Source of the DNA: a virus
Virus record (IMG/VR): IMGVR_UViG_3300008108_000672
Location: 1 to 21,735 of that record
Reading direction: 5' to 3' (one strand)
DNA: 21,735 nt
Shown here: positions 2,893-18,836 of the stretch, piece by piece
Numbering within the stretch: the first letter of the stretch is position 1
Layout: every line of letters starts with the position of its first letter
The notes under the pieces: model-generated
What the model was told of the DNA's origin: nothing
Databases searched by the model: none
The model's input: only the letters and a program-made list of their open reading frames with translations
Position numbers and translations under genes: made by a program

Positions 2893-3609
2893 ATGAAAAA
2901 TATAGACATACAAAGCTTTAGGACTAAATTGTTAGAAGAACAAACAGAGTGGCCAAAAGAAATGCAATCCAGATACCGTGGCGAATATTTGTTTATTCAC
3001 GATGATAGCAAACCGGGTTTTTACGGAGTAAAAGACTTGAAAACTGGACAAATGGTTGGTAGAGTTGGTTTTAAATCAGTTGAACAAGCTAAAGAATACG
3101 CGGCCGATTTAATAAAACCTCAAGGAGGAAGACAGTCTAGCCATTTTGAAGAAAACATTGACTTACCTGGAGATCAAGAAAAAATAGACGTAGCAGAACC
3201 AAAAGGAAAGATAACTAAGGCCGACTTCGAAAAGCTAAGATCTATGAAAAAGGGAAAGTCCCTAAAAAAAGAAACCGTAAACATGGATGAATTAAGAATG
3301 GTATTAGCTAGACTTAAACAAAAGAATCCAGGAAAGAAAATAACATACGATTTTATTAAAAATCCTAAATACCCAAAAGGCTATGTAATTAGAATAGATG
3401 GTAAAATAATATCAGAAACATCTATGTCAAGCGATCACGAAGTGGCAATGGCAATGAGCAGTCTAAAGGAGATAGTTAGCAACGCTTCTCAACTAATGGA
3501 CAAGCTTGGAGGAATGGAAAGAGATATTCCAGGTTGGATACAGGACCACATAACAAACGCAGAGAACTACATAGAACAAGCAAACCAAGGCTTTCACGAG
3601 CTACAATAA
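2893..3609 (+). CDS. Head-associated protein with conserved C-terminal helical motif
   Basis: 238 residues from the ATG at 2893, one base after the upstream stop; the frame extends back to 2833, but that part lies inside the previous gene. The N-terminus MKNIDIQSFRTKLLE|EQ ends in L-L-E, again matching a targeting peptide. Residues ~25-75 form a small alpha/beta domain (Y-R-G-E-Y-L-F-I ... G-F-Y-G-V-K-D). A Lys-rich linker follows, then a domain around 135-175. The last ~50 residues, with M-D-K-L ... D-I-P-G-W-I-Q-D-H-I-T-N-A-E-N-Y-I, are a motif found at the ends of many short phage proteins (L-P-x-W-V-x-x-K-I-x-x-A-x-x-Y-I). Function is unknown. Confidence 0.8.
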   Translation: MKNIDIQSFRTKLLEEQTEWPKEMQSRYRGEYLFIHDDSKPGFYGVKDLKTGQMVGRVGFKSVEQAKEYAADLIKPQGGRQSSHFEENIDLPGDQEKIDVAEPKGKITKADFEKLRSMKKGKSLKKETVNMDELRMVLARLKQKNPGKKITYDFIKNPKYPKGYVIRIDGKIISETSMSSDHEVAMAMSSLKEIVSNASQLMDKLGGMERDIPGWIQDHITNAENYIEQANQGFHELQ

Positions 3610-3626: not shown

Positions 3627-4562
3627 ATGAACTTGGACGCGCTAATAATAAAACAGATTTTGCTCGAAGCTGACAAAGAGCAACCTGAACAAGAAGAAAA
3701 AAAGGAACTAACTCCCTTTGAACAAGATCCAATGGGCTTCATACTAAAGAAGTACGCAAGCCTAAACGAACTCTTGACTGAACTGATGACAGATTCTTTC
3801 AAAGAGTACCTCAATGCGATATTCATAGTGGCACCAAAACCAACCACATTCAAAGTATTGCTACACAACGGCCAGTACTTCTTTTTGACGTACCTAAACA
3901 AGGCGTACCAAGCAACAATATCAGGTAAGAACTACTACTTAATGACGCTTGGAGAAAAGCAACTTTGTATGCAAGCAATCGCAAGACTTTTACGCTTTGG
4001 GTCACCGCTAAAAACAAAAGGACCAGAGGGCGCCGAGCAAGACACTGGAGCAGCGGAAGGCGAAACAGGCGGAGAAACAGTAACACCAGAAACACCGCCA
4101 GCAGAGGGAGGAGAAGAATTGAAAGAAGCTTCGATATTGGCTGAAATACTAAAAAGACAACTATTTAATGAAGCAGTAAAAGGCGCTAGTAGACCATCAA
4201 CCGGTAACGAAACTTCTTTAAAAGAGGGATTAGTTTGTCTATTTTACGACGTTTTTAAAATACCTTCATTGGTGACTGAAATAGAAGATCTACACGCGTT
4301 AGTTACTACAAAACAAGCAGCAAGTGAAATAAAAGAAGAAGATGTAACAAAAGTAACTAATAAAATATCTCAAGTATATAATAAAAATAAACAATATTAT
4401 GGCTCCGGAAAATCAATGCCAGAGAATCTTGATCTATATGTTAAGTATGTATTTTTAACCGGACAAGAAATAGATACACTAACAAATGCAATATCCGCAG
4501 CCGCTTCTATACATAAAGAAGTTTGCTGTATCATTAAAAGAAGAAAAAGCTCAAGCGGGTAA
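3627..4562 (+). CDS. N-terminal part of a large mosaic head-associated protein (frame broken near 4515)
   Basis: The open frame is 311 residues, but the real protein probably continues in frame +1 as the part ending at 5493, giving about 621 residues. The leader MNLDALIIKQILLE|AD ends in L-L-E|A (E14), a targeting-type site. Residues ~30-130 form a conserved domain (D-P-M-G-F-I-L-K-K-Y-x-S-L ... V-A-P-K-P-T-T-F-K-V-L-L-H-N-G-Q-x-F-x-L-T-Y) that I recall from marine T4-type phages without a function. A Gly/Glu/Thr/Pro linker follows (~133-165), then L-K-E|A (E167) and a new AT-richer module starting about 183. From about residue 297 the frame reads an unlikely sequence (EVCCIIKRRKSSSG) and stops, whereas the +1 frame continues sensibly with K-K-F-A-V-S-L-K-E-E. 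Confidence 0.75.
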   Translation: MNLDALIIKQILLEADKEQPEQEEKKELTPFEQDPMGFILKKYASLNELLTELMTDSFKEYLNAIFIVAPKPTTFKVLLHNGQYFFLTYLNKAYQATISGKNYYLMTLGEKQLCMQAIARLLRFGSPLKTKGPEGAEQDTGAAEGETGGETVTPETPPAEGGEELKEASILAEILKRQLFNEAVKGASRPSTGNETSLKEGLVCLFYDVFKIPSLVTEIEDLHALVTTKQAASEIKEEDVTKVTNKISQVYNKNKQYYGSGKSMPENLDLYVKYVFLTGQEIDTLTNAISAAASIHKEVCCIIKRRKSSSG

Positions 4563-5493
4563 AGCGACAACGTTCGCTAATACAGTATTTAGTAACTCTT
4601 TTGATGCAAACGTAGATCCTAATGATAAATACGGTACATCTGACAATAAAGATTTGGCAAAGATCTCAGCAAAAATAGCTAGATTCGAAGATTATTTCTA
4701 TGGACCAAAAAGAGGAGGCAAACGTTCTCAAAGCTACATAAATTCTATCACAAAAGATAAAAAGCTACACGGCTCAGTAAATTCAATACTTCAAGCAGTT
4801 GGAAAACCAAAAATAAAAACAGACGGGATAAAACCTGAATATAAGTCAGAAGACGCTTTTTATAAGGCTAATAAAACTATTTTTGATGATCTAGAATCAG
4901 CTATAAAAACTATAAAATCTAAACTAACAGGTTCAGACTCTACTGCAAAGGTTAAAAAGTCTTTTACAAATAGTAGAGATAAATTTATAAGCGATATAAA
5001 AAAATACAAAATAGAAGTAAGTGCAGAAGATAGCAGTAAGTTTTCTAAAGAAATAGAAAAAGAGAACGAAGATTTCATAAAAGTACTATCAATGAAAACT
5101 GCTACATACGAATTAGCGAGTTTGATAATTGATAGGTGGACAGACAAGAATGCTAAAATATCTCCTGCATATAAAAAAATACAAGAAGTATCAAATCCAT
5201 TTGTTGCGTTAACCGCATTTGCAATTGCAGAAGCTGGGTTAAGTCCAAGCTTTTATAAAGTAATAGGTAGCTCTAAATCTTTAATGGGCCACGCCGATTA
5301 TTTCGATGCTAAAGCAGAAGTAGATATTGACTCGAGTAGCACAAAAATGACGCTTGTAGATTCTCCCAAACAGGCTGGCTTCTTACTGTCTTACGTAACC
5401 AAACTAGGAAAAAAGAGCTATTCAACCAAATTAGTATTTAGATTCTCAGGTTCTGAAATAAGAATAGAGGTACAAGAATTGAAAGCACAATAA
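4486..5493 (+). CDS. C-terminal part of the large mosaic head-associated protein
   Basis: The frame is open from 4486, but sensible protein begins at about 4513; the first nine residues overlap coding sequence of the upstream frame and are spurious. Read through, it gives ~325 residues rich in Lys, Ser and Asp, with helical stretches (~60-200), an A-F-A-I-A-E-A-G segment, and a strand-rich C-terminus (F-L-L-S-Y-V-T-K ... L-V-F-R-F-S-G-S-E-I-R-I-E-V). There is no ribosome-binding site or plausible independent start. Best explained as the second half of the gene beginning at 3627, separated by a one-base shift between 4512 and 4521. I recognise no catalytic motif. It may be a variable cargo module carried by the conserved N-terminal domain. 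Confidence 0.65.
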   Translation: MQYPQPLLYIKKFAVSLKEEKAQAGKATTFANTVFSNSFDANVDPNDKYGTSDNKDLAKISAKIARFEDYFYGPKRGGKRSQSYINSITKDKKLHGSVNSILQAVGKPKIKTDGIKPEYKSEDAFYKANKTIFDDLESAIKTIKSKLTGSDSTAKVKKSFTNSRDKFISDIKKYKIEVSAEDSSKFSKEIEKENEDFIKVLSMKTATYELASLIIDRWTDKNAKISPAYKKIQEVSNPFVALTAFAIAEAGLSPSFYKVIGSSKSLMGHADYFDAKAEVDIDSSSTKMTLVDSPKQAGFLLSYVTKLGKKSYSTKLVFRFSGSEIRIEVQELKAQ

Positions 5494-11242: not shown

Positions 11243-12349
11243 ATGAAGCCATTCAATAACTCTTTTGCTACTTTAAAACTTAGGGAAGAGCAATCATCGT
11301 TTGACGAGCAAAATGTAACAGGCGCAGACGGAGCTTACAATGCTTCCTTACACGCAAGCAAAAAGAAAAGAAACCCTTTTACCGAGGACGAACTATCAGG
11401 ATACAAGAAGCTTAAGGGCTTTAGACCGGGTCACACTAAAGACACAGGAGGATTCCAATACAGCGATTTATGGGGAGTAAACGAGGGTTTTGAAGTTGGA
11501 GACAAAGCTAAGGTGACGATGAAGGGTAACGTAAATCACAATAAAATAGGCGAAATAGTAGACGTTACAGAAGACGGAAAGTACTTTACGCTTCAGTTCA
11601 AAAACAACACAAAGTCTATATATCACCAGTCGGACATAACCATACCAGCAGGAATAAAAGACTTCGAAGAGAAGCCAAGACTAGATATAGATGAAGCCGA
11701 GCAAACATACAACGACGATGATATTTACGAACCGTACGAACAAGACGACGATGAAGACGATTACGATTGGTTCACAGACACTTACGAGAAAAGCACTAAA
11801 AACGAAAATCACTCTGATTCCAACGCTCAAGAGCTAGAAAGAGTAGAAAACCTCCTATCAGTTGCCCATCAAAAGAACGACTATTCTGTAATGAGTGCAT
11901 ATGAAAATCGCATCAAACGATTAAAATTATTAGTGGCTATAGAAAAAAAGATAGGTAAACAGCTTCCACGTCTTGAATTCCATGTAGATTTTGCTAATTA
12001 TCTTAGAAAAGAACTTGGATATAAAGGACCTATAAAATATAGTCAGTTAGGTGGATTAAAAAATGCTGTAGAAATAGCTGATTTTATTATAAGTAGCCAA
12101 AGTCAAATAAACGAGAACTATCACAGATTCAAAAAAGAAACAGTTACCAGAAGCAAAGAGCAGCAGATGCACGAAGCGATGAAGCTGGTTAGAAAGAAGC
12201 TGTACGAAGCTGAGAAGGTGATAGATTACGTTAAGACAATGAAGGAAGAGCTTGGTCTACAGGAGTACAAGAGTCACACAAACAAATTGATGGAAAAGCT
12301 TCAAATATCCATCAGCGAGATATACAAAAAATACAAAAGCATAAAGTAA
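11243..12349 (+). CDS. Mosaic prohead-core-region protein with KOW-like domain and inserted module
   Basis: 368 residues in four parts. (1) Basic N-terminus, 1-80, with G-x-R-P-G-H-T. (2) After V-N-E|G (E81), a small beta-barrel of KOW/SH3 type (V-G-D-K-A-K-V ... I-G-E-I-V-D-V ... Y-F-T-L-Q-F) at ~84-135, then an Asp/Glu/Tyr-rich acidic linker (~145-180). (3) A ~103-residue helical module between N-E|N (E188) and I-N-E|N (E291), AT-richer than its flanks and bordered by imperfect direct DNA repeats. (4) A conserved helical C-terminus ~292-368 (A-M-K-L-V-R-K-K-L-Y-E-A-E-K-V-I-D-Y). The position between portal and protease genes suggests a core protein. Function is unrecognised; the mosaic build is the notable feature. 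Confidence 0.78.
   Translation: MKPFNNSFATLKLREEQSSFDEQNVTGADGAYNASLHASKKKRNPFTEDELSGYKKLKGFRPGHTKDTGGFQYSDLWGVNEGFEVGDKAKVTMKGNVNHNKIGEIVDVTEDGKYFTLQFKNNTKSIYHQSDITIPAGIKDFEEKPRLDIDEAEQTYNDDDIYEPYEQDDDEDDYDWFTDTYEKSTKNENHSDSNAQELERVENLLSVAHQKNDYSVMSAYENRIKRLKLLVAIEKKIGKQLPRLEFHVDFANYLRKELGYKGPIKYSQLGGLKNAVEIADFIISSQSQINENYHRFKKETVTRSKEQQMHEAMKLVRKKLYEAEKVIDYVKTMKEELGLQEYKSHTNKLMEKLQISISEIYKKYKSIK
11800..11820 (+). repeat. Imperfect direct repeat copy 1 at left edge of inserted module
   Basis: Begins AAACGA and ends GATTC. Compared with 12109-12130 about 16 of 22 aligned positions agree, at a distance of 309 bases (103 codons) in frame. Marks the left edge of the AT-rich module in the gene at 11243-12349. 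Confidence 0.4.
12109..12130 (+). repeat. Imperfect direct repeat copy 2 at right edge of inserted module
   Basis: Begins AAACGAGAA and ends CAGATTC. Partner of 11800-11820. The encoded peptide N-E-N occurs in both copies. Confidence 0.4.
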
Positions 12350-12351
12350 AA

Positions 12352-12480
12352 ATGGCAAAAGCAAAATCAGCAGGAGAGAGCCGTAAAATAAGTTTCGGCA
12401 AAAGAAAGAAAGGAAAAGCTCAGAAGTCTCACAACAAACACGACAGAAAAGAAAGGACTTATCAAGGGCAAGGACGCTAA
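12352..12480 (+). CDS. Very small basic conserved head-region protein
   Basis: 42 residues, 15 of them Lys or Arg and only 3 acidic, with S-F-G-K-R-K-K-G-K-A-Q-K-S-H-N-K-H-D-R-K-E-R near the middle and G-Q-G-R at the end. I recall similar tiny proteins (F-G-K-R-x-x-G-K ... N-K-H-D-R-K) in marine T4-type phages beside the prohead genes, with no known role. The ATG lies 2 bases after the preceding stop in a tightly packed row, and the product fills an otherwise empty 149-base gap. The charge suggests nucleic-acid or acidic-core binding. T4 also has a very small core gene here (67), though its product is acidic. Confidence 0.75.
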   Translation: MAKAKSAGESRKISFGKRKKGKAQKSHNKHDRKERTYQGQGR

Positions 12481-12485
12481 CTTAA

Positions 12486-12496
12486 CATATTTATTA
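12486..12496 (+). promoter_or_regulatory. Candidate late promoter motif very close to start codon
   Basis: CATATTTATTA ends only 2 bases before the ATG at 12499. If it is a -10-type element, transcription would begin at or beyond the ATG, so the message would be leaderless or a downstream start would be needed. Confidence 0.55.
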
Positions 12497-12498
12497 GT

Positions 12499-14442
12499 AT
12501 GACAAACATAACCAAACTTTATCAACAGCTACAAGAGGGTAAGACAACCCGTGAATATTTCGTTAGGGAAGCCCGCAGACAGTTTCCACAGTTCATTAGC
12601 CCTGTGACTTCTTTTACTGACGCTGTAAACATATTGAAGAGCAAAAGACTTGTGTCCGAAAACATAACTAAAGAAGTTAGTGGAGCTTTCTTTGACGCTC
12701 CCCCAGTTACAACTATAGATGAAGCTACACTAAAAGATCTAGTTCAACCTCTAGTAGCAAAGTTAGAATCTATGGGATTTGAAACAGAAATAGATCCATA
12801 TGGAGGTTATAAAACGTTATTTGCATGGAAAACTTTTCCAAATGGAAATACATTAACAATGTTTGTAGGTCCATCAGATTATGAATTGAAAAAAAGAGAT
12901 TATAAGGGATTTGATGAATTCTCTACCATAGACGTAAGTTTTAAATACTACACTACCGAGATAACAAAGAAACTTTTTGGACTATATAAAAGTAAGAAAC
13001 GTGTAATGCAAGCGCTTCCTGATGAGGGTGGTAGAGAAATAGACTTAGGAGTCGGAATGTTTGATATACCTATTGAAGATTCTGTAGAAAGAATAGCAAG
13101 TTTGGTGAGAAAAGCAGAACAAAAAGTAGAAAGTGGACAATTAAACAAATCAGAGCCTGTAAACGAAGCACACAAGCTTGACGCAGAACAAATACTCGAT
13201 AGAATGTCTCCCTATGCTGTTAAAAAGGGCATGGAAGCTGAGCTAAAGAAAGAAAAGACTTACGACAATACTACAATCGATAAGGTAAAAGAGAAAGTGG
13301 CAAGGAAGCTTAAAAAGAATCCAAATGCGTACGACGATCAGATAGTAGCAAACGTAAAGAAGGTTGAAAAACAGGACAAAGAGCTTGAAGCTACAGAGCT
13401 AAAAAAAGAATTGGTAGATAAGAAGAATGCGATGAGAAAGCCTAAGGGCTTCAAAGCTGATAAGGCTAACACGAAGGCGTCTAAGAAAGAAAATAGAAAA
13501 GGTAAGCCAAAGGGCGTTAAAGTAATGCCAGATAAAGGAGTAATAGGAACCGAAAAAGTCATAAAAGAAAACATAGAGGACGATGAGTATATGAAACCAA
13601 GACCTGGTGGACCATTACTAAGCCCACAAGATAAAGAAGCAGAAGACTTTGATTTGATGAAGATGAAAGTTAAAGGTTGGTACAGAAAAAATTTCGCTAA
13701 CCCAAAATCACAATTAGCATCAAAGTGGGATAATGAATTTTACGGTAGCGTAGAAGCTGCTTCAAACAAAGAAGAGCTCAAACAAGCTGTACAGAGCATA
13801 TTAATGGGAGATACGAGTTCAGCTAGAAAAGAACTCGGTCTAGATGAAAATAAAACTGCCGTAATAGAGAATCTAAAACAGTGGCTTCAGGAGAACGTTT
13901 CTAGAGAATACCACCCCGGCATGGAAGTAAAAACCCCAGACGGCCAAGGGATAGTTAAAGAGGTAATTGGCGGTACGTTAACAGTTGAATTAGAAGATAG
14001 TAATATAAAAGACTATCAGTTCAATGTTATAAATAAGCTCATGGATAAGGACGAAGAAGAGCCAATACAAACAACCGATGAACCAATACAGGTAGATCCA
14101 GACAAAGCAGCTAGAGACGCGGCGTTTGCTAAGCTTCCAAATCTAGGATCTGTTAGAGGAAGCGGCAATGTGATTCCTAGAAGCTGGTGGCAAGACATGA
14201 CAAAAGAGGAAAAAATAGCTGCCATAATCGAAAGATTGAACAAAATGGAAGAGGGAGAAAATAAAGAGAAGATCAAAGAAATGATAAAGTCTAAATTAAA
14301 AGAGGGAGGAGCCGCCGTAGCAATTTCAACCAATAGAGGGGAAAAAATTATTCCTGTAAAAAGCGCTGGTGATGCTACTAATATGGCTAATGATTTAAGA
14401 AAGAGCGGTTTTTCTAATCCACAAATAATTCAAGGAAAATAG
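12499..14442 (+). CDS. Large mosaic prohead-core-region protein with several modules
   Basis: 647 residues. N-terminal ~54 residues (M-T-N-I-T-K-L-Y-Q-Q-L-Q-E|G ... Q-F-I-S-P-V-T-S-F) are a conserved start I recall from prohead-region genes of marine phages and include L-Q-E (E13). Module A, ~55-223, between V-S-E|N and V-N-E|A, is an alpha/beta domain. The conserved helical, Lys-rich region ~224-357 contains A-E-x-I-L-D-R-M-S-P-Y-x-V-K-K-G-M-E. Module B, ~358-465, lies between I-K-E|N and L-Q-E|N. Then come a KOW-like segment (H-P-G-M-E-V ... G-I-V-K-E-V) at ~470-510, a linker, a helical part (P-R-S-W-W-Q-D-M) and, after L-K-E|G (E602), a ~45-residue C-terminal module. The prohead protease gene follows one base after the stop. 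Probably a head core component; exact role unknown. Confidence 0.78.
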   Translation: MTNITKLYQQLQEGKTTREYFVREARRQFPQFISPVTSFTDAVNILKSKRLVSENITKEVSGAFFDAPPVTTIDEATLKDLVQPLVAKLESMGFETEIDPYGGYKTLFAWKTFPNGNTLTMFVGPSDYELKKRDYKGFDEFSTIDVSFKYYTTEITKKLFGLYKSKKRVMQALPDEGGREIDLGVGMFDIPIEDSVERIASLVRKAEQKVESGQLNKSEPVNEAHKLDAEQILDRMSPYAVKKGMEAELKKEKTYDNTTIDKVKEKVARKLKKNPNAYDDQIVANVKKVEKQDKELEATELKKELVDKKNAMRKPKGFKADKANTKASKKENRKGKPKGVKVMPDKGVIGTEKVIKENIEDDEYMKPRPGGPLLSPQDKEAEDFDLMKMKVKGWYRKNFANPKSQLASKWDNEFYGSVEAASNKEELKQAVQSILMGDTSSARKELGLDENKTAVIENLKQWLQENVSREYHPGMEVKTPDGQGIVKEVIGGTLTVELEDSNIKDYQFNVINKLMDKDEEEPIQTTDEPIQVDPDKAARDAAFAKLPNLGSVRGSGNVIPRSWWQDMTKEEKIAAIIERLNKMEEGENKEKIKEMIKSKLKEGGAAVAISTNRGEKIIPVKSAGDATNMANDLRKSGFSNPQIIQGK

Positions 14443-14443
14443 T

Positions 14444-15082
14444 ATGTCTAAACAGCTACTGATAGACCACTCGGTATTCCAACCGACTAACATTTTAAAG
14501 GAATCAATCGACGCAAAGACCAGAAACATGGTCGTGATTGGTCTTGTGCAAGCTTGTGATAAACCAAACGCAAACCGGCGCATTTATCCTTACGATGTAC
14601 TATATCCTCAGGTTGAGAAATACGTATCAGGTCCAATAGCTGAGAACAGAGCGTTGGGAGAATTGGATCACCCAGAGTCTTCCATCATAAACTTAAAGAA
14701 CGTATCACACAACATATTAGAACTGTGGTGGAAGGGAAAGGATCTCTACGGAAAGGTTGAGATACTACCTACGCCGTCAGGCAACATACTAAAGGAGCTC
14801 TTCCTAAACAACATTACAGTAGGCATATCTTCAAGGGCTTTGGGTTCCACTACTCAGATAGGCGAAGGTCTAGTTCGAGTTGAAGAAGATCTAGACATCA
14901 TCTGTTGGGACTTCGTATCTCAACCCAGCACCTACGGAGCTTACATGAGACCGCAACAATCTGTAGGTATAGGCATAAACGAATCTGTTAATTTCCAACA
15001 ACAAGACACAAAATACAGCAAAGCAAATCAGCTCATGCGCGATCTTATTTGCGAAATGTCAGGAGTTTGTTGCGTTAATTAA
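14444..15082 (+). CDS. gp21: Prohead core protease (T4 gp21-like)
   Basis: 212 residues, the usual length for this serine protease family, which has a herpesvirus-assemblin-like fold. It degrades the scaffold and trims head proteins after L/I-x-E during prohead maturation. Catalytic His76 lies in L-G-E-L-D-H-P-E; the nucleophile is in V-G-I-S-S-R-A (Ser129 or Ser130). N-terminal V-I-G-L-V-Q-A ... N-A-N-R-R-I-Y-P and late D-F-V-S-Q-P-S-T are also typical. Two candidate self-cleavage sites flank the core: L-K-E|S (E20) and I-N-E|S (E180), so mature enzyme might span about 21-180. It follows the mosaic core protein by one base and precedes scaffold and capsid genes, the T4 order 21-22-23. Confidence 0.95.
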   Translation: MSKQLLIDHSVFQPTNILKESIDAKTRNMVVIGLVQACDKPNANRRIYPYDVLYPQVEKYVSGPIAENRALGELDHPESSIINLKNVSHNILELWWKGKDLYGKVEILPTPSGNILKELFLNNITVGISSRALGSTTQIGEGLVRVEEDLDIICWDFVSQPSTYGAYMRPQQSVGIGINESVNFQQQDTKYSKANQLMRDLICEMSGVCCVN

Positions 15083-15102
15083 GCGATTCTACCAAAAATA
15101 TA

Positions 15103-15112
15103 CATATTTATT
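15103..15112 (+). promoter_or_regulatory. Candidate late promoter motif for scaffold and capsid genes
   Basis: CATATTTATT in the 120-base gap after the protease gene, 90 bases before the scaffold ATG at 15203. It is the only member of the motif family with a long leader. Confidence 0.6.
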
Positions 15113-15119
15113 GATAAAT

Positions 15120-15183
15120 GTGCAAATCCCACTATTGCACTAGATCAAAAAAACACATATTGCTTCAATCTACAATAAGCAAT
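15120..15183 (+). promoter_or_regulatory. Structured 5' leader of the scaffold gene: two small hairpins
   Basis: Hairpin 1: GTGCAA (15120-15125) with TTGCAC (15135-15140), 9-base loop. Hairpin 2: ATTGCTT (15159-15165) with AAGCAAT (15177-15183), 11-base loop. Both stems are perfect. An A-rich, Shine-Dalgarno-free stretch of about 19 bases follows before the ATG. They may protect or tune the scaffold/capsid message; neither has a T-run, so they are not terminators. Confidence 0.4.
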
Positions 15184-15202
15184 TAAAAACCAAAAAAAAA
15201 TT

Positions 15203-16369
15203 ATGGACAACAAAATTTACAAAGAAGCGATTCTTGACGCTAAAGCATTACGTGCCGGTGCAATTGCAAACGCAAAATCAATCATGCAAGAAGCACTTGA
15301 GCCCGCTATTCAAGAAATGATGCGCCTTAAACTCTCTGAAGAACTCGAAGAAGATCTTGAAGAAGGTACTTACGAAGAGGGATACGAAGAGGAAGGTGCA
15401 ATGAAAGAAGAAGGCATTGATGAAGTTACTGACGCTACTTTAGAAGAAATTCTTGCTGAGCTCGACGAACTTGATGGTCAAGAAGAGGGAGCAATCAACG
15501 AAGCAGAGGGTGACGACGAAGACGAAGCTGATTCCGATGACGAAGTTGCTGATGAAGAAGAAGCTGTATCAGACGACACAAAGGTGGTTCAACTAACTTT
15601 GGGAGATCTTAAAGCCGCTTTGATGCCTCAAGCTGCTGAAATGGGAGACGAAGCTGGTGAAGAATCAGAAGAAGCTCCTCTATCTTTGGACGAAATCTTA
15701 GCTGAAATGGAAGCTGAAAAGTACGAAGAGGGTAAAGATCACGTTGAAGAAGACGTAATGACTGGAGCTAAAAAAGCTGCATTAGACCTTTTTGGTAATG
15801 TATCACCTGAGAACACTTTCTTATTAGGTTTAGGCGTTGTTGGTGCAGTAGTAGCGGGAGCTATTGCTTTACCAAAAGCTATACCAATGATTAAAGGATA
15901 TTGGGCGGCATTAACAGATAAGGGAGAAAAAGCTGAATTGGCTAAGGCTGCTGAAAAGGTCGGAGTAGACATCGATGGAGACTCTGCACCAGTTGCAGAA
16001 GAAAAACATCACGGCATGGAAGAAGAACTCAAAATGGCAAAAGAAACAATCGCTGAATTGAGAGAGAGCATCAACGAAATCAACCTCTTGAATGCTAAGC
16101 TTCTTTACATGAACAAGATCTTCAAAGCTAAATCTTTGACCGAGTCTGAAAAAGTAAAAGTAGTTAAAGCTTTCGATAGAAACGTAAGCATCAAAGAAGT
16201 TAAAAACACTTACGAGACGCTTAGCGAATCTTTCCAAGCTAAAAAATCACAGGTTATCAAAGAATCTGTAGGTTTCGCATCAAAACCGATCGGAGTAGCA
16301 CCTAAAACTAACATCGTGGAAGCTGACGCTTTCGTTAACAGGTGGCAAAAGATCGCAGGTATCAAATAA
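15203..16369 (+). CDS. gp22: Prohead scaffold protein (T4 gp22-like) with hydrophobic insert
   Basis: 388 residues against 269 in T4. Core scaffold around which capsid protein assembles; normally degraded by the prohead protease. Very acidic (Glu/Asp-rich ~44-185) with helical ends. The conserved C-terminal part is L-L-Y-M-N-K-I-F-K-A-K-S-L-T-E-S-E-K ... F-D-R-N-V-S-I-K-E-V. The peptide L-(D/E)-E-I-L-A-E occurs twice (80-86, 162-168). Many L/I-x-E sites fit its degradation, e.g. I-K-E|S (E354). An unusual block at ~181-263 contains a membrane-like stretch (206-223, L-L-G-L-G-V-V-G-A-V-V-A-G) and the gene's only ATA codon; it is bordered by the near-identical 11-mers GTTGAAGAAGA (15743) and GTTGCAGAAGA (15992), 83 codons apart. 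Start: ATG after an A-run. Confidence 0.92.
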   Translation: MDNKIYKEAILDAKALRAGAIANAKSIMQEALEPAIQEMMRLKLSEELEEDLEEGTYEEGYEEEGAMKEEGIDEVTDATLEEILAELDELDGQEEGAINEAEGDDEDEADSDDEVADEEEAVSDDTKVVQLTLGDLKAALMPQAAEMGDEAGEESEEAPLSLDEILAEMEAEKYEEGKDHVEEDVMTGAKKAALDLFGNVSPENTFLLGLGVVGAVVAGAIALPKAIPMIKGYWAALTDKGEKAELAKAAEKVGVDIDGDSAPVAEEKHHGMEEELKMAKETIAELRESINEINLLNAKLLYMNKIFKAKSLTESEKVKVVKAFDRNVSIKEVKNTYETLSESFQAKKSQVIKESVGFASKPIGVAPKTNIVEADAFVNRWQKIAGIK

Positions 16370-16404
16370 AAAATCAAAAACAAAACAAAAAACCAATAAT
16401 CACA

Positions 16405-18063
16405 ATGGCAAATTTAGTAAGCTCGCTTCTAAGCGAATCAGCCCAAACTGCCTTTGAAAGCCAAACGGGTGTTGCTACTCGCCTTTCAAAAAAATGGGAA
16501 AAATCCGGACTTTTAGAAGGTCTACAGGATTACGAAAAGAACAACATGGCAGTGTTGTTAGAAAACCAAGCAAAACAGCTCGTAGTTGAAACCACTAACA
16601 CAAACCAAGGCGGTAACACATGGAGCGGTAACGGAACTGGCGAACAATGGGCTGGCGTAGCTCTTCCATTGGTTCGTAAGATCATGGGACAGATCGCTGC
16701 GAAAGAATTCGTTAGCGTTCAACCTATGAACCTTCCTGCAGGCCTAGTATTCTACCTTGATTTCCAATACGGAAACGATAAGAATCCTTTTGGAGCTGGT
16801 AACTCAATCTACGGTACTCCTTCTGCTAACTTTGGTAACTTGGCTGCTGGTGGTCTTTACGGCGCTGGTAAGTTCGGTTACTCTTTGAATCAGTTTAGCG
16901 CTTCTGTTAGCTCTTCTACCGCTACAAGTGCTTCTGCTACTTTTGCAGAATTGGAGTTTAATGCTGATTTCTCTGCATCTGTTGCAGCTAAGACAATCAC
17001 TAAGGTAACTGTTCCTACTTCTTCTCTTGGTGCTGACATCAACGTAGACGGGGTTAGAGCTTTCATCATCACTTCTGGTTCTACAGTTAACGCTGCTGAT
17101 AACTTACAACAGTTCACTGCTCTTTCTTCTAGCGCTGCTGGTGTATATGTTAATTTCTTCGTAAATAAAGCTCTTGCATCTTTCGCAGGTACAGCTACTT
17201 ACGTGGTTAACTACAATAAGAAGACAGACTTCAACTCTCGCGGTGACTTCGAAGACAGAGCTGGTTTACCTTCAGTTCCTAATGCTGCTTCTAACACATC
17301 TATCGTTATCCCTGAGATCAACGTACAGATGAAGAATCAGACCGTTTCTGCTAAGACTCGTAAGTTGAAAGCACAATGGACTCCTGAATTTGCACAAGAC
17401 CTTAACGCTTACCACTCTCTTGACGCTGAAGCTGAATTGACTGGCATCCTTTCTGAGCACATCTCTCTTGAGATCGACCTCGAAGTAATGGATATGCTAA
17501 TCCAAAATGCTCCTACCGTTGAGTACTGGTCTGCTAAGGTTGGTAGCCAAATCAACGCTTCTTATACGCAATACGATAGCAACGTATCTGGTGTGTTTTA
17601 CACTCAAATGACTTGGTTCCAAACACTTGGTATCAAACTTCAGAAGGTGTCTAACATCATCCACCAACGAACTTTACGTGGCGGCGCTAACTTCATGGTA
17701 GTTTCTCCTACAGTTGCTACAATCCTCGAGTCAATCCCTGGATTTGCTGCTGATACTGATGGAGCTGCTGACACAATGAAGTATGCTTTCGGTGTACAGA
17801 AGATCGGTGCTTTGAACAGCCGTTACAAAGTTTACAAGAACCCTTACATGACTGAGAACGTGATCCTTATGGGTTATCGCGGTAACCAGTTCCTTGAGTG
17901 TGGCGCTGTATACTCTCCGTACGTTCCATTGATCATGACTCCTCTCGTTTACGATCCTAATACTTTTACACCTCGCAAAGGTATCATGACTCGTTACGCG
18001 ATGACAATGATCAGGCCCGAGTTTTATGGTTTAGTTGTAGTAGCAGATACAAACGTTATCTAA
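16405..18063 (+). CDS. gp23: Major capsid protein (T4 gp23-like)
   Basis: 552 residues from the ATG at 16405; the frame opens earlier (16342) but that part lies in the scaffold gene. HK97-fold shell protein. The N-terminal peptide to be removed in maturation holds candidate sites L-S-E|S (E11), L-L-E|G (E38), L-L-E|N (E53), with V-V-E|T (E62) near the place where T4 gp23 is cut (E65). Conserved gp23 parts: V-R-K-I-M-G-Q-I-A-A ... V-S-V-Q-P-M, V-S-A-K-T-R-K-L-K-A-Q-W-T-P-E, D-L-N-A-Y-H-S-L-D-A-E-A-E-L, and the C-terminal R-P-E-F-Y-G. A Ser/Ala/Thr-rich surface insertion lies at ~150-265. All 26 Ile codons are ATC and Arg is mostly CGY, unlike the ATA/AGA-rich neighbours, fitting very high expression. 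A strong terminator follows. Confidence 0.97.
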   Translation: MANLVSSLLSESAQTAFESQTGVATRLSKKWEKSGLLEGLQDYEKNNMAVLLENQAKQLVVETTNTNQGGNTWSGNGTGEQWAGVALPLVRKIMGQIAAKEFVSVQPMNLPAGLVFYLDFQYGNDKNPFGAGNSIYGTPSANFGNLAAGGLYGAGKFGYSLNQFSASVSSSTATSASATFAELEFNADFSASVAAKTITKVTVPTSSLGADINVDGVRAFIITSGSTVNAADNLQQFTALSSSAAGVYVNFFVNKALASFAGTATYVVNYNKKTDFNSRGDFEDRAGLPSVPNAASNTSIVIPEINVQMKNQTVSAKTRKLKAQWTPEFAQDLNAYHSLDAEAELTGILSEHISLEIDLEVMDMLIQNAPTVEYWSAKVGSQINASYTQYDSNVSGVFYTQMTWFQTLGIKLQKVSNIIHQRTLRGGANFMVVSPTVATILESIPGFAADTDGAADTMKYAFGVQKIGALNSRYKVYKNPYMTENVILMGYRGNQFLECGAVYSPYVPLIMTPLVYDPNTFTPRKGIMTRYAMTMIRPEFYGLVVVADTNVI

Positions 18064-18214: not shown

Positions 18215-18255
18215 TTGGCGCTTAACAAAATAGTGTAGAGCGTTGCTACCTTGTG

Positions 18256-18265
18256 CATATTTATA
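18256..18265 (+). promoter_or_regulatory. Candidate promoter motif for the phoH region and neck genes
   Basis: CATATTTATA, 17 bases before the ATG at 18283 and after the capsid terminator, so a new transcript is expected here. An in-frame GTG at 18253 would place the motif inside the coding region and is less likely to be the start. Confidence 0.65.
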
Positions 18266-18282
18266 TAAAACACAGTTACAAG

Positions 18283-18606
18283 ATGGAAAATCAACCTGTT
18301 TCGCAAAAAAGAAAGCCAAAGAATCCTATAAAGTTTCAGGTAACACTGAATGAGGAGCAAAAAGAGACAAAAGCAGCGATACTAAACAACAAGATAACGG
18401 TTGTTAAGGGTCAAGCTGGATCTGGAAAATCGTTGGTAGCAGCACAGGTCGCATTAGACCTATTGTTTAGAAGGGAAGTAGAGAAGATCATACTAACGAG
18501 ACCAGCTGTTACATCTGGTGAGGAGATAGGTTACCTTCCAGGAGACAAAGATGCTAAGCTGGCTCCCTACACCGCAGCGATATACGAGACGAAGCCCAAA
18601 ACATAA
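18283..18606 (+). CDS. phoH: PhoH-like ATPase, N-terminal fragment (gene broken)
   Basis: 107 residues from the ATG at 18283. PhoH-like proteins are P-loop ATPases, common in marine phages, with uncertain roles in nucleic-acid or stress metabolism. Seen: N-P-I-K-F-Q-V-T-L-N-E-E-Q, Walker A G-Q-A-G-S-G-K-S (43-50), T-R-P-A-V-T-S-G-E-E-I-G-Y-L-P-G-D (72-88), and P-Y-x-x-x-I-Y-E (95-102). After I-Y-E the frame runs only five more residues and stops. In the family about 40 residues should follow before Walker B, including the M-R-G-R-T segment; they are absent here, and Walker B continues in another frame from about 18588. A frame-changing internal deletion in the phage or an assembly gap explains this. 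The fragment alone would not be an active ATPase. Confidence 0.88.
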   Translation: MENQPVSQKRKPKNPIKFQVTLNEEQKETKAAILNNKITVVKGQAGSGKSLVAAQVALDLLFRREVEKIILTRPAVTSGEEIGYLPGDKDAKLAPYTAAIYETKPKT

Positions 18607-18617
18607 CCCACAGACAG

Positions 18618-18836
18618 ATGGAGTTGCTTTTGGGTAGGATATGCATAGGAACGAAGATGATAGTGTGCGGGGATGTGTCTCAGATAGATTTAAAAGACAG
18701 GAAGATGAGCGGATTTCAGTTTCTGTGTACAAATTTCAAAGAGGTACCCGGTTTCGAAGTGATAACGCTTAAGAAGAACCACAGGGACCCAATAGTAGAA
18801 GACATACTAAAAATATATAAAGAACACTTAGATTAA
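18618..18836 (+). CDS. phoH: PhoH-like ATPase, C-terminal fragment (gene broken)
   Basis: 72 residues from ATG 18618, but homologous sequence already begins at about 18588, where this frame reads D-E-A-Q-N-I-T-H-R-Q just before the ATG: the Walker B and following helix of PhoH. Then come L-L-L-G-R-I, M-I-V-C-G-D-V-S-Q-I-D-L-K-D-R-K-x-S-G-F, and the K-K-N-H-R-D-P-I-V-E-D-I-L family ending. The frame differs from the N-terminal fragment; the two meet at about 18586-18590. Lacking Walker A, it cannot bind ATP in the normal way if made alone. The next gene starts 5 bases after the stop. Confidence 0.85.
   Translation: MELLLGRICIGTKMIVCGDVSQIDLKDRKMSGFQFLCTNFKEVPGFEVITLKKNHRDPIVEDILKIYKEHLD

Follow-up and report, generated by a model that had tools for sequence, protein, structure and literature searches.

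Exchangeable modules bounded by predicted prohead-protease sites in head proteins of a T4-related environmental phage

In T-even phages, the internal proteins IPI, IPII and IPIII and the protein Alt carry a short N-terminal segment that ends at a site for the prohead protease gp21, are packaged into the prohead core and are cleaved (PMC9026906, PMC3012670, PMC12373910). The T-even internal proteins place diverse bodies behind one leader, are injected and act against restriction (PMC12373910, PMC3012670). Polyvalent proteins of phages and conjugative elements are multidomain proteins thought from prediction to accompany the DNA and to undergo peptidase processing, with assemblin-like peptidases fused at some of their C-termini (Iyer et al. 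2017, PMC5512222). PhiKZ and SPN3US combine a gp21-like protease and x-E sites with head ejection proteins (PMC10052503). Here we describe a 21.7-kb viral fragment with a T4-like head gene cluster (IMG/VR record IMGVR_UViG_3300008108_000672, positions 1 to 21,735; the whole stretch is called the window), in which two genes starting at positions 11243 and 12499 encode mosaic proteins that are probably prohead-core carriers of exchangeable modules.

The window resembles each of these systems in part. Its head cluster runs from the terminase (6815; phrog_2) and portal (8425; phrog_213) through a 282-amino acid protein (10391) and the 11243 and 12499 carriers to the prohead protease, a gp22-like acidic scaffold (15203–16369) and the major capsid protein (16342/16402; phrog_138). 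The protease (14444–15082) is a gp21 homologue (phrog_207, E=1.1e-45; T4 gp21, PDB 5jbl, E=1.1e-24 over residues 29–175), with homology that takes in the GELDHPE and GISSR active-site regions. Like T4 gp67, gp68 and gp22, which gp21 cuts, the proteins considered here have their genes either between those for portal and protease or past the protease gene, and would be cut into several fragments. The 11243 and 12499 genes themselves occupy the gp67/gp68-type position between portal and protease in the window and in most loci compared; a PHROG search returned no match for their products, either to gp67 or gp68 or to any other family. T4 loses most of its gp67, gp68 and gp22 fragments, whereas the window proteins have variable folded domains between the sites. 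Each T4 cargo protein has its own gene; the window proteins combine many modules in a polypeptide, also inside core and scaffold proteins. Polyvalent proteins are defined by several known, often enzymatic domains of disparate activity, and their peptidases are mostly zincins; the domains of the window proteins are small and uncharacterized, the gp21 is separate and the boundaries map to its sites. In PhiKZ and SPN3US, N-terminal propeptides are taken off one mature body, and module swapping at sites is not described there. By analogy, the system would join the workings of T-even internal proteins to the concept, taken from polyvalent proteins, of injecting proteins with several domains. A search of the open literature, with preprints and most subscription papers outside its scope, returned no paper joining prohead-protease sites to module exchange.

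A sequence-only reading of the window had proposed that its head proteins are mosaics whose extra modules are bounded by sites for a protease cutting after L/I-x-E. We compared homologues across 155 loci, mostly metagenome contigs. Two of these, L003 and L004, hardly differ from the window in their terminase, portal and protease sequences (protease identity 98%), and the closest cultured relative found, Flavobacterium phage immuto (L006; MW353175; laboratory host Flavobacterium sp. LMO8), has the same gene order. Between close relatives, whole modules have been lost, gained or replaced in four products (11243, 12499, 15203 and 2893), and the edges of these modules lie at [LIVMF]-x-E; homologues do not all contain the same modules, nor are the edges unrelated to x-E, and the proposed mosaicism was borne out. 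The comparison makes it nearly certain that the modules are bounded by such sites and exchanged at them.

Insert edges were examined using indels of at least 20 amino acids with conserved flanks, an edge counting as a hit within 2 residues of [LIVMF]-x-E. Such events numbered 201 in carriers (91 distinct), 57 in the scaffold (32 distinct) and 57 in the terminase (1 distinct); the portal, the 10391 product and the capsid protein had none. Of the 91 distinct carrier indels, 41 had a site at both edges, against 2.7 for random positions (0 of 300 randomizations reached the observed value). After collapse into 59 indel families, which limits pseudo-replication, 24.7 had both edges at sites versus 4.2 expected (maximum 9.7 in 200 randomizations). 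Scaffold indels likewise track the sites, less strongly than those of carriers. An earlier edge test based on smoothed identity blocks gave only an approximately twofold signal, diluted by ordinary divergence, and was replaced by the indel test. Motif frequency was set aside as evidence – [LI].E occurs at 1.74 times the shuffled level in carriers, yet at 1.5 times in the terminase and 2.7 times in the protease. It is the placement of sites at module edges that lies far above chance in these sequences, not the motif counts, and the pattern is conserved.

The 12499 product illustrates this organization. The sequence-only reading had numbered the site residues of this and the 11243 and 3627 products correctly throughout; here they are RLVSE/N (54), EPVNE/A (223), KVIKE/N (357), QWLQE/N (465) and SKLKE/G (602), the slash marking the predicted cut. 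Parts of carriers and cargo-type genes given below by nucleotide span, like the protease and scaffold, lie on the plus strand. A helical N-terminal domain common to relatives (residues 1–54, 12499–12660), with LQE/G at 13, ends at LVSE/N and is followed by a linker (residues 55–75, 12661–12723) that ends at TIDE/A. Exchangeable module 1, an alpha/beta domain ending at PVNE/A (residues 76–223, 12724–13167), precedes a conserved helical domain with a basic tail that ends at VIKE/N (residues 224–357, 13168–13569; net charge +15). Beyond it lie the helical exchangeable module 2 (residues 358–465, 13570–13893), an SH3/KOW-like domain (residues 466–521) with a low-confidence, helical tail ending at KLKE/G (together 13894–14304), and a C-terminal module (residues 603–647, 14305–14439) that differs among the window, L003 and L004. 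Module 1 is missing from L003, and L004 has an unrelated short module in its place. Module 2 is present in L003 and missing from L004, where VIKE joins DVIENIKSWLQE. Right after KSKL(K/N)E the three protein sequences diverge, with nearly identical DNA upstream. The left edge of module 1 had been set at residue 54; it is better placed at TIDE/A (75), the residue equivalent to the point at which homology to a separate gene of locus L159 begins.

Across homologues of the 12499 product, hydrophobic-x-E is kept at residue 54 in 35 of 35, at residue 223 in 42 of 42 and at residue 465 in 43 of 46, with E465 near-invariant; site 602 is retained only in the closest relatives. P2 and the flanks vary (LVSE, VITE, IIAE and IIRE in one column; PVNE, KINE, PMKE and IIKE in another). 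Valine at P3, initially regarded as a relaxed form of the consensus, is supported because different hydrophobic residues fill the corresponding alignment columns in homologues, P3 being hydrophobic in every homologue at residues 54 and 223. In the AlphaFold model, the predicted local distance difference test score (pLDDT) is ~94 over residues 1–50 and below 50 over residues 55–71. All five named sites lie in or beside segments with pLDDT<50, which comprise 25% of residues, as compared with 2 of the other 11 motifs.

The 11243 product is built along similar lines, with sites at WGVNE/G (81), STKNE/N (188) and SQINE/N (291). It begins with a capsid-targeting-like segment, MKPFNNSFATLKLRE (11243–11287), directly after which modules of 62–68 amino acids are inserted in L003, L004 and L016. 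An SH3/KOW-like module with an acidic linker follows GVNE/G (11486–11692; the pattern at 81 is found in 28 of 37 homologues), and a helical module ends at QINE/N (residues 189–291, 11807–12115; the pattern at 291 is found in 41 of 41). The remainder is a conserved C-terminal helical core segment (residues 292–368, 12116–12346). Position 188 fared less well as a predicted site: the window has T-K-N-E, with a misfitting lysine at P3, and L003 and L004 have IKE/N. The proposed KOW-like module (82 to ~138) is an SH3-like beta-barrel, modeled confidently over residues 84–138 and SH3/KOW/Tudor-like (Foldseek E ~4e-3 to PsaE and Tudor domains, probability 1.00), and the proposed helical module is likewise a confident helical domain in the model (189–285, pLDDT ~93; confident over 190–285). 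Neither the 11243 product nor module 1 of the 12499 product had a match among 50,697 phage records.

Individual modules move between carriers. One module, recognized by DINDP...EAEPEGGPIADRYG, recurs in 11243-type, 12499-type and middle carriers and in a 3627-type protein of immuto; a scan of viral contigs found 330 stretches, 313 of which encode a relative. A site lies 3–4 residues before the anchor in 45 of 48 distinct upstream contexts, compared with 7.1 (standard deviation, SD, 2.4; maximum 14 of 500) for random positions. Where the flanks of DINDP-carrier genes are recognizable, they adjoin portal, 10391 or protease homologues or 3627-like genes. The DINDP carriers reach 1243 amino acids, and those of L200 and L221 can be read as extended series of modules with x-E at the end of every one. 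At the gene positions equivalent to those of the T4 core proteins, total protein length ranges from ~150 to 655 amino acids. Stretches related to module 2 of the 12499 product occur in 11243-type carriers of L067, L073 and L075.

Modules also occur as separate genes behind leader-like segments. Module 1 of the 12499 product is one such gene at L159:2950–3432, which begins MKITEFKKLIREEVRKVLKE/ATLKDL, with homology starting exactly after the LKE site, at ATLKDL. The DINDP module stands alone in L016 (MKLFEILSE/EFSANDPVL), and ENFKDGKKKGK, ESLRDWFK and DHEVSMA modules provide further cases. The window itself has two separate cargo-type genes: MISLLAILFE followed by a basic domain (2365–2619; +15) and MISLLQILNE followed by a basic DUF5824 domain (2619–2888; +18; PF19141, E=1.4e-17). 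Both resemble T-even internal proteins, with the leader glutamate at position 10 as in T4 IPIII (PMC9026906), and together with the L159 and L016 genes they show the T4-type combination of a short leader, a gp21 site and varied bodies. In T4 IPIII, aspartate in place of the site glutamate prevents processing. As expected of polyprotein carriers, then, modules move between carriers and exist as leader-tagged genes.

We propose, with a probability of about two in three, that the 11243 and 12499 products – and less clearly the 2893 and 3627 products and the 15203 scaffold – are prohead-core polyproteins. The N-terminal segment would bring the carrier into the core, with folded modules strung along the chain and [LIVMF]-x-E sites of the gp21-type protease in between. 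The activated protease would cut the linkers in the prohead, shredding scaffold-like parts and freeing modules whole. The freed modules would most likely remain in the head, and some at least would be ejected with the DNA, like the separate T4 internal proteins. With a short cleavage site both before and at the end of every module, modules could be gained, lost, duplicated or moved to a different carrier without harm to head assembly. The strength of these steps differs. The protease family and the conservation of the sites make cutting by the gp21-type protease very likely. We lean towards retention of intact modules in the head; leader-tagged separate genes and site-poor module interiors favour intact release. 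Ejection into the host is an even bet drawn by analogy with T4 internal proteins, since most T4 core-protein fragments leave the head, and anti-defence roles are a tentative guess. More broadly, T4-related environmental phages probably have a plug-in cargo system in which prohead proteins serve as cassettes, their slots set by protease sites, and a common pool of small domains supplies hundreds of phages. A domain could be a leader-tagged gene, a module of a polyprotein of up to ~1240 amino acids or a scaffold insert, all freed by the prohead protease, with the cleavage site doubling as the exchange junction.

Several observations weigh against this proposal. Cleavage after L/I-x-E is predicted from sequence pattern, [LIVMF].E often arises by chance, and bare counts fail to set carriers apart. 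A helix is predicted across site 291 of the 11243 product, which, like sites 81 and 188, falls outside low-confidence segments. Pfam and NCBIfam searches recognized no effector domain in any window module. Released pieces mostly leave the head in T4 and SPN3US (PMC9026906, PMC10052503). Finally, a systematic comparison of separate genes with carrier copies, which takes in non-cargo proteins, found both sites in 19% versus 7% for the control, the enrichment being only moderate because unrelated genes were included.

An unlikely alternative is that modules are freed and kept but act within the particle, in packing or neutralizing DNA or setting head size, rather than in the host. In its favour, several cargo-type proteins are strongly basic (the 2365 and 2619 products, and residues 224–357 of the 12499 product), and an SH3/Tudor-like fold, frequently a binder of nucleic acid or proteins, is seen in some modules; the SH3-like domain of the 12499 product (466–521) matches Tudor domains with Z scores of ~6–7. 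Other modules, however, are neutral or acidic (12499 residues 76–223, −3; residues 358–465, −4), and fast swapping among near-identical phages resembles arms-race cargo such as the T-even internal proteins. Foldseek returned no significant fold for the 12499 model (best E 0.022). A likeness of module 1 to actin-capping protein (Z score 8.8, root-mean-square deviation 3.9, 103 residues, 11% identity) may reflect merely a common arrangement, and we drew no function from it.

A marginally less probable alternative is that the carriers are head-building filler, shaping the core like T4 gp22, gp67 and gp68, with the pieces cut and expelled and module turnover reflecting weak constraint. The location of the carriers where T4 has gp67/gp68, the removal of most T4 core fragments (PMC9026906), the general departure of SPN3US propeptides (PMC10052503) and carrier parts that, like the scaffold, are site-rich (residues 292–368 of the 11243 product, 6 sites versus 2.5 expected) are all consistent with it. 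Against it, the same modules occur as separate genes with capsid-targeting-like N-termini and in carriers outside the gp20–gp21 interval, and modules are compact predicted domains. The distribution of sites also argues against it: DINDP module interiors are depleted (11 in 53 modules versus 82.5, SD 7.4, expected by shuffling), as are 33 non-redundant inserts (24 versus 40.6, SD 4.8), whereas the scaffold is enriched (2664 versus 1819 expected), although these numbers overstate significance as family members are not independent.

We consider it very improbable that the x-E motifs are incidental, with flexible glutamate-rich linkers tolerating insertions and the protease ignoring the motifs. 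[LI].E is common in these proteins anyway, but only hydrophobic-x-E was enriched at both edges: the controls [LIV].K,.D,.Q,.N and.S had no double-edge enrichment in the indel test, and [KR].E, [ASG].E, [LIV].K and [LIV].D were not consistently enriched at both edges. The pattern is also conserved while P2 and flanks vary, and its place before the DINDP module is fixed to within one residue in 45 of 48 contexts. Mosaicism produced by assembly noise or chimerism hardly merits consideration, for although the loci are mostly metagenome contigs and the window has disrupted open reading frames (PhoH, 3627/4486), flanking genes are continuous and near-identical, the same arrangements recur in independent contigs (L004/L005; L016/L017/L018) and the isolate immuto has the same organization.

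If the polyprotein-carrier proposal is right, many environmental phages hold in their heads large interchangeable sets of proteins freed by one protease, and dividing sequences at hydrophobic-x-E sites could reveal the cargo. Hundreds of unnamed domains in phage dark matter would gain boundaries and a rule by which to search for them, and they are candidate anti-defence or takeover factors for injection. What the heads of T4-like phages contain, a long-standing question, would become testable in cultured immuto, and natural designs are suggested for loading proteins into capsids.

Other proteins show parts of the same pattern. The 3627 product starts with a capsid-targeting-like segment, MNLDALIIKQILLE (residues 1–14), and its N-terminal module ends at EELKE/A (LKE/A, residue 167; 3627–4127). 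The module switch placed there agrees with the relatives: the N-terminal module stands alone as genes of 149–167 amino acids in five loci (L079, L092, L094, L095 and L109) and forms the C-terminus of an 841-amino acid immuto protein. The window open reading frames 3627 and 4486 (3627–5493) correspond to a single 697-amino acid frame in L004 (729–2822), with ~80 residues gone at ~4530. In the 2893 product, an exchangeable insert (2941–3153) lies between LLEE and HFEE/NIDLPG; L004 lacks it (LREE/QNVDLPG). The middle of the scaffold (~15752–16000) is a different module in L004. In the immuto scaffold (L006:20049–21290), a 62-amino acid unit is repeated in tandem, each copy directly after x-E; the copies share 94.6% nucleotide identity and only three of the bases before the unit are identical. 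Read from sequence, a module of this cultured phage was duplicated recently. Predicted cuts in immuto fall after SMMNE/NEIDNSDY and RIVE/AGEK sites of QQO91871.1 (before the slash), at GVNE/GFEQWL and NLEE/GFEQWL in the scaffold QQO91883.1, and at MIQE/AK in QQO91879.1. The window protease probably bears a C-terminal site of its own, GINE/S, and its N179–E180 is conserved in immuto.

In a relative of 183 kb (L244–L253, 86–119 kb), approximately ten small genes form a cluster; their N-termini resemble leaders and fall into three types: MIKLxDLLxE, MKxxxVKKLQKIAGILKE and MKxNFNLVKYLSxxNRLLKE. Genome-wide, sites are enriched near N-termini, though weakly and confounded by homologous genes. Searches of Pfam, NCBIfam and PHROGs with the window carriers gave nothing above curated cut-offs, the DUF5824 of the 2619 product being the sole match, and neither the carriers of the window nor the long ones of L200 and L221 had a known enzymatic domain of the polyvalent kind in Pfam or NCBIfam; by the published definition they are therefore not polyvalent proteins. 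A Pfam match to RMF (ribosome modulation factor; best E 3e-7) occurs in five carriers (alignment A3), making the matched stretch a candidate module with a host target.

A 907-amino acid immuto protein (L006:1554–4277) has a nucleotidyltransferase-like GGFKPPHLAH and a metallopeptidase-like HExxH (HEMIHH); it may be of polyvalent type and a bridge to polyvalent proteins. A further carrier may be encoded at 526–1821 of the window: this 431-amino acid protein contains several x-E sites, has hydrophobic helices like those of tape-measure proteins and carries a phrog_7595 domain at its C-terminus. PhoH is broken in the window (18253–18836) into open reading frames at 18253–18606 and 18618–18836 and is intact in L004 as one 234-amino acid frame (17085–17789); the copy in the window carries either a deletion or a frameshift. 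A 449-amino acid zinc-finger/homing-endonuclease-like protein (15058–16407) is inserted in L004 between those for the capsid protein and PhoH and is missing from the window.

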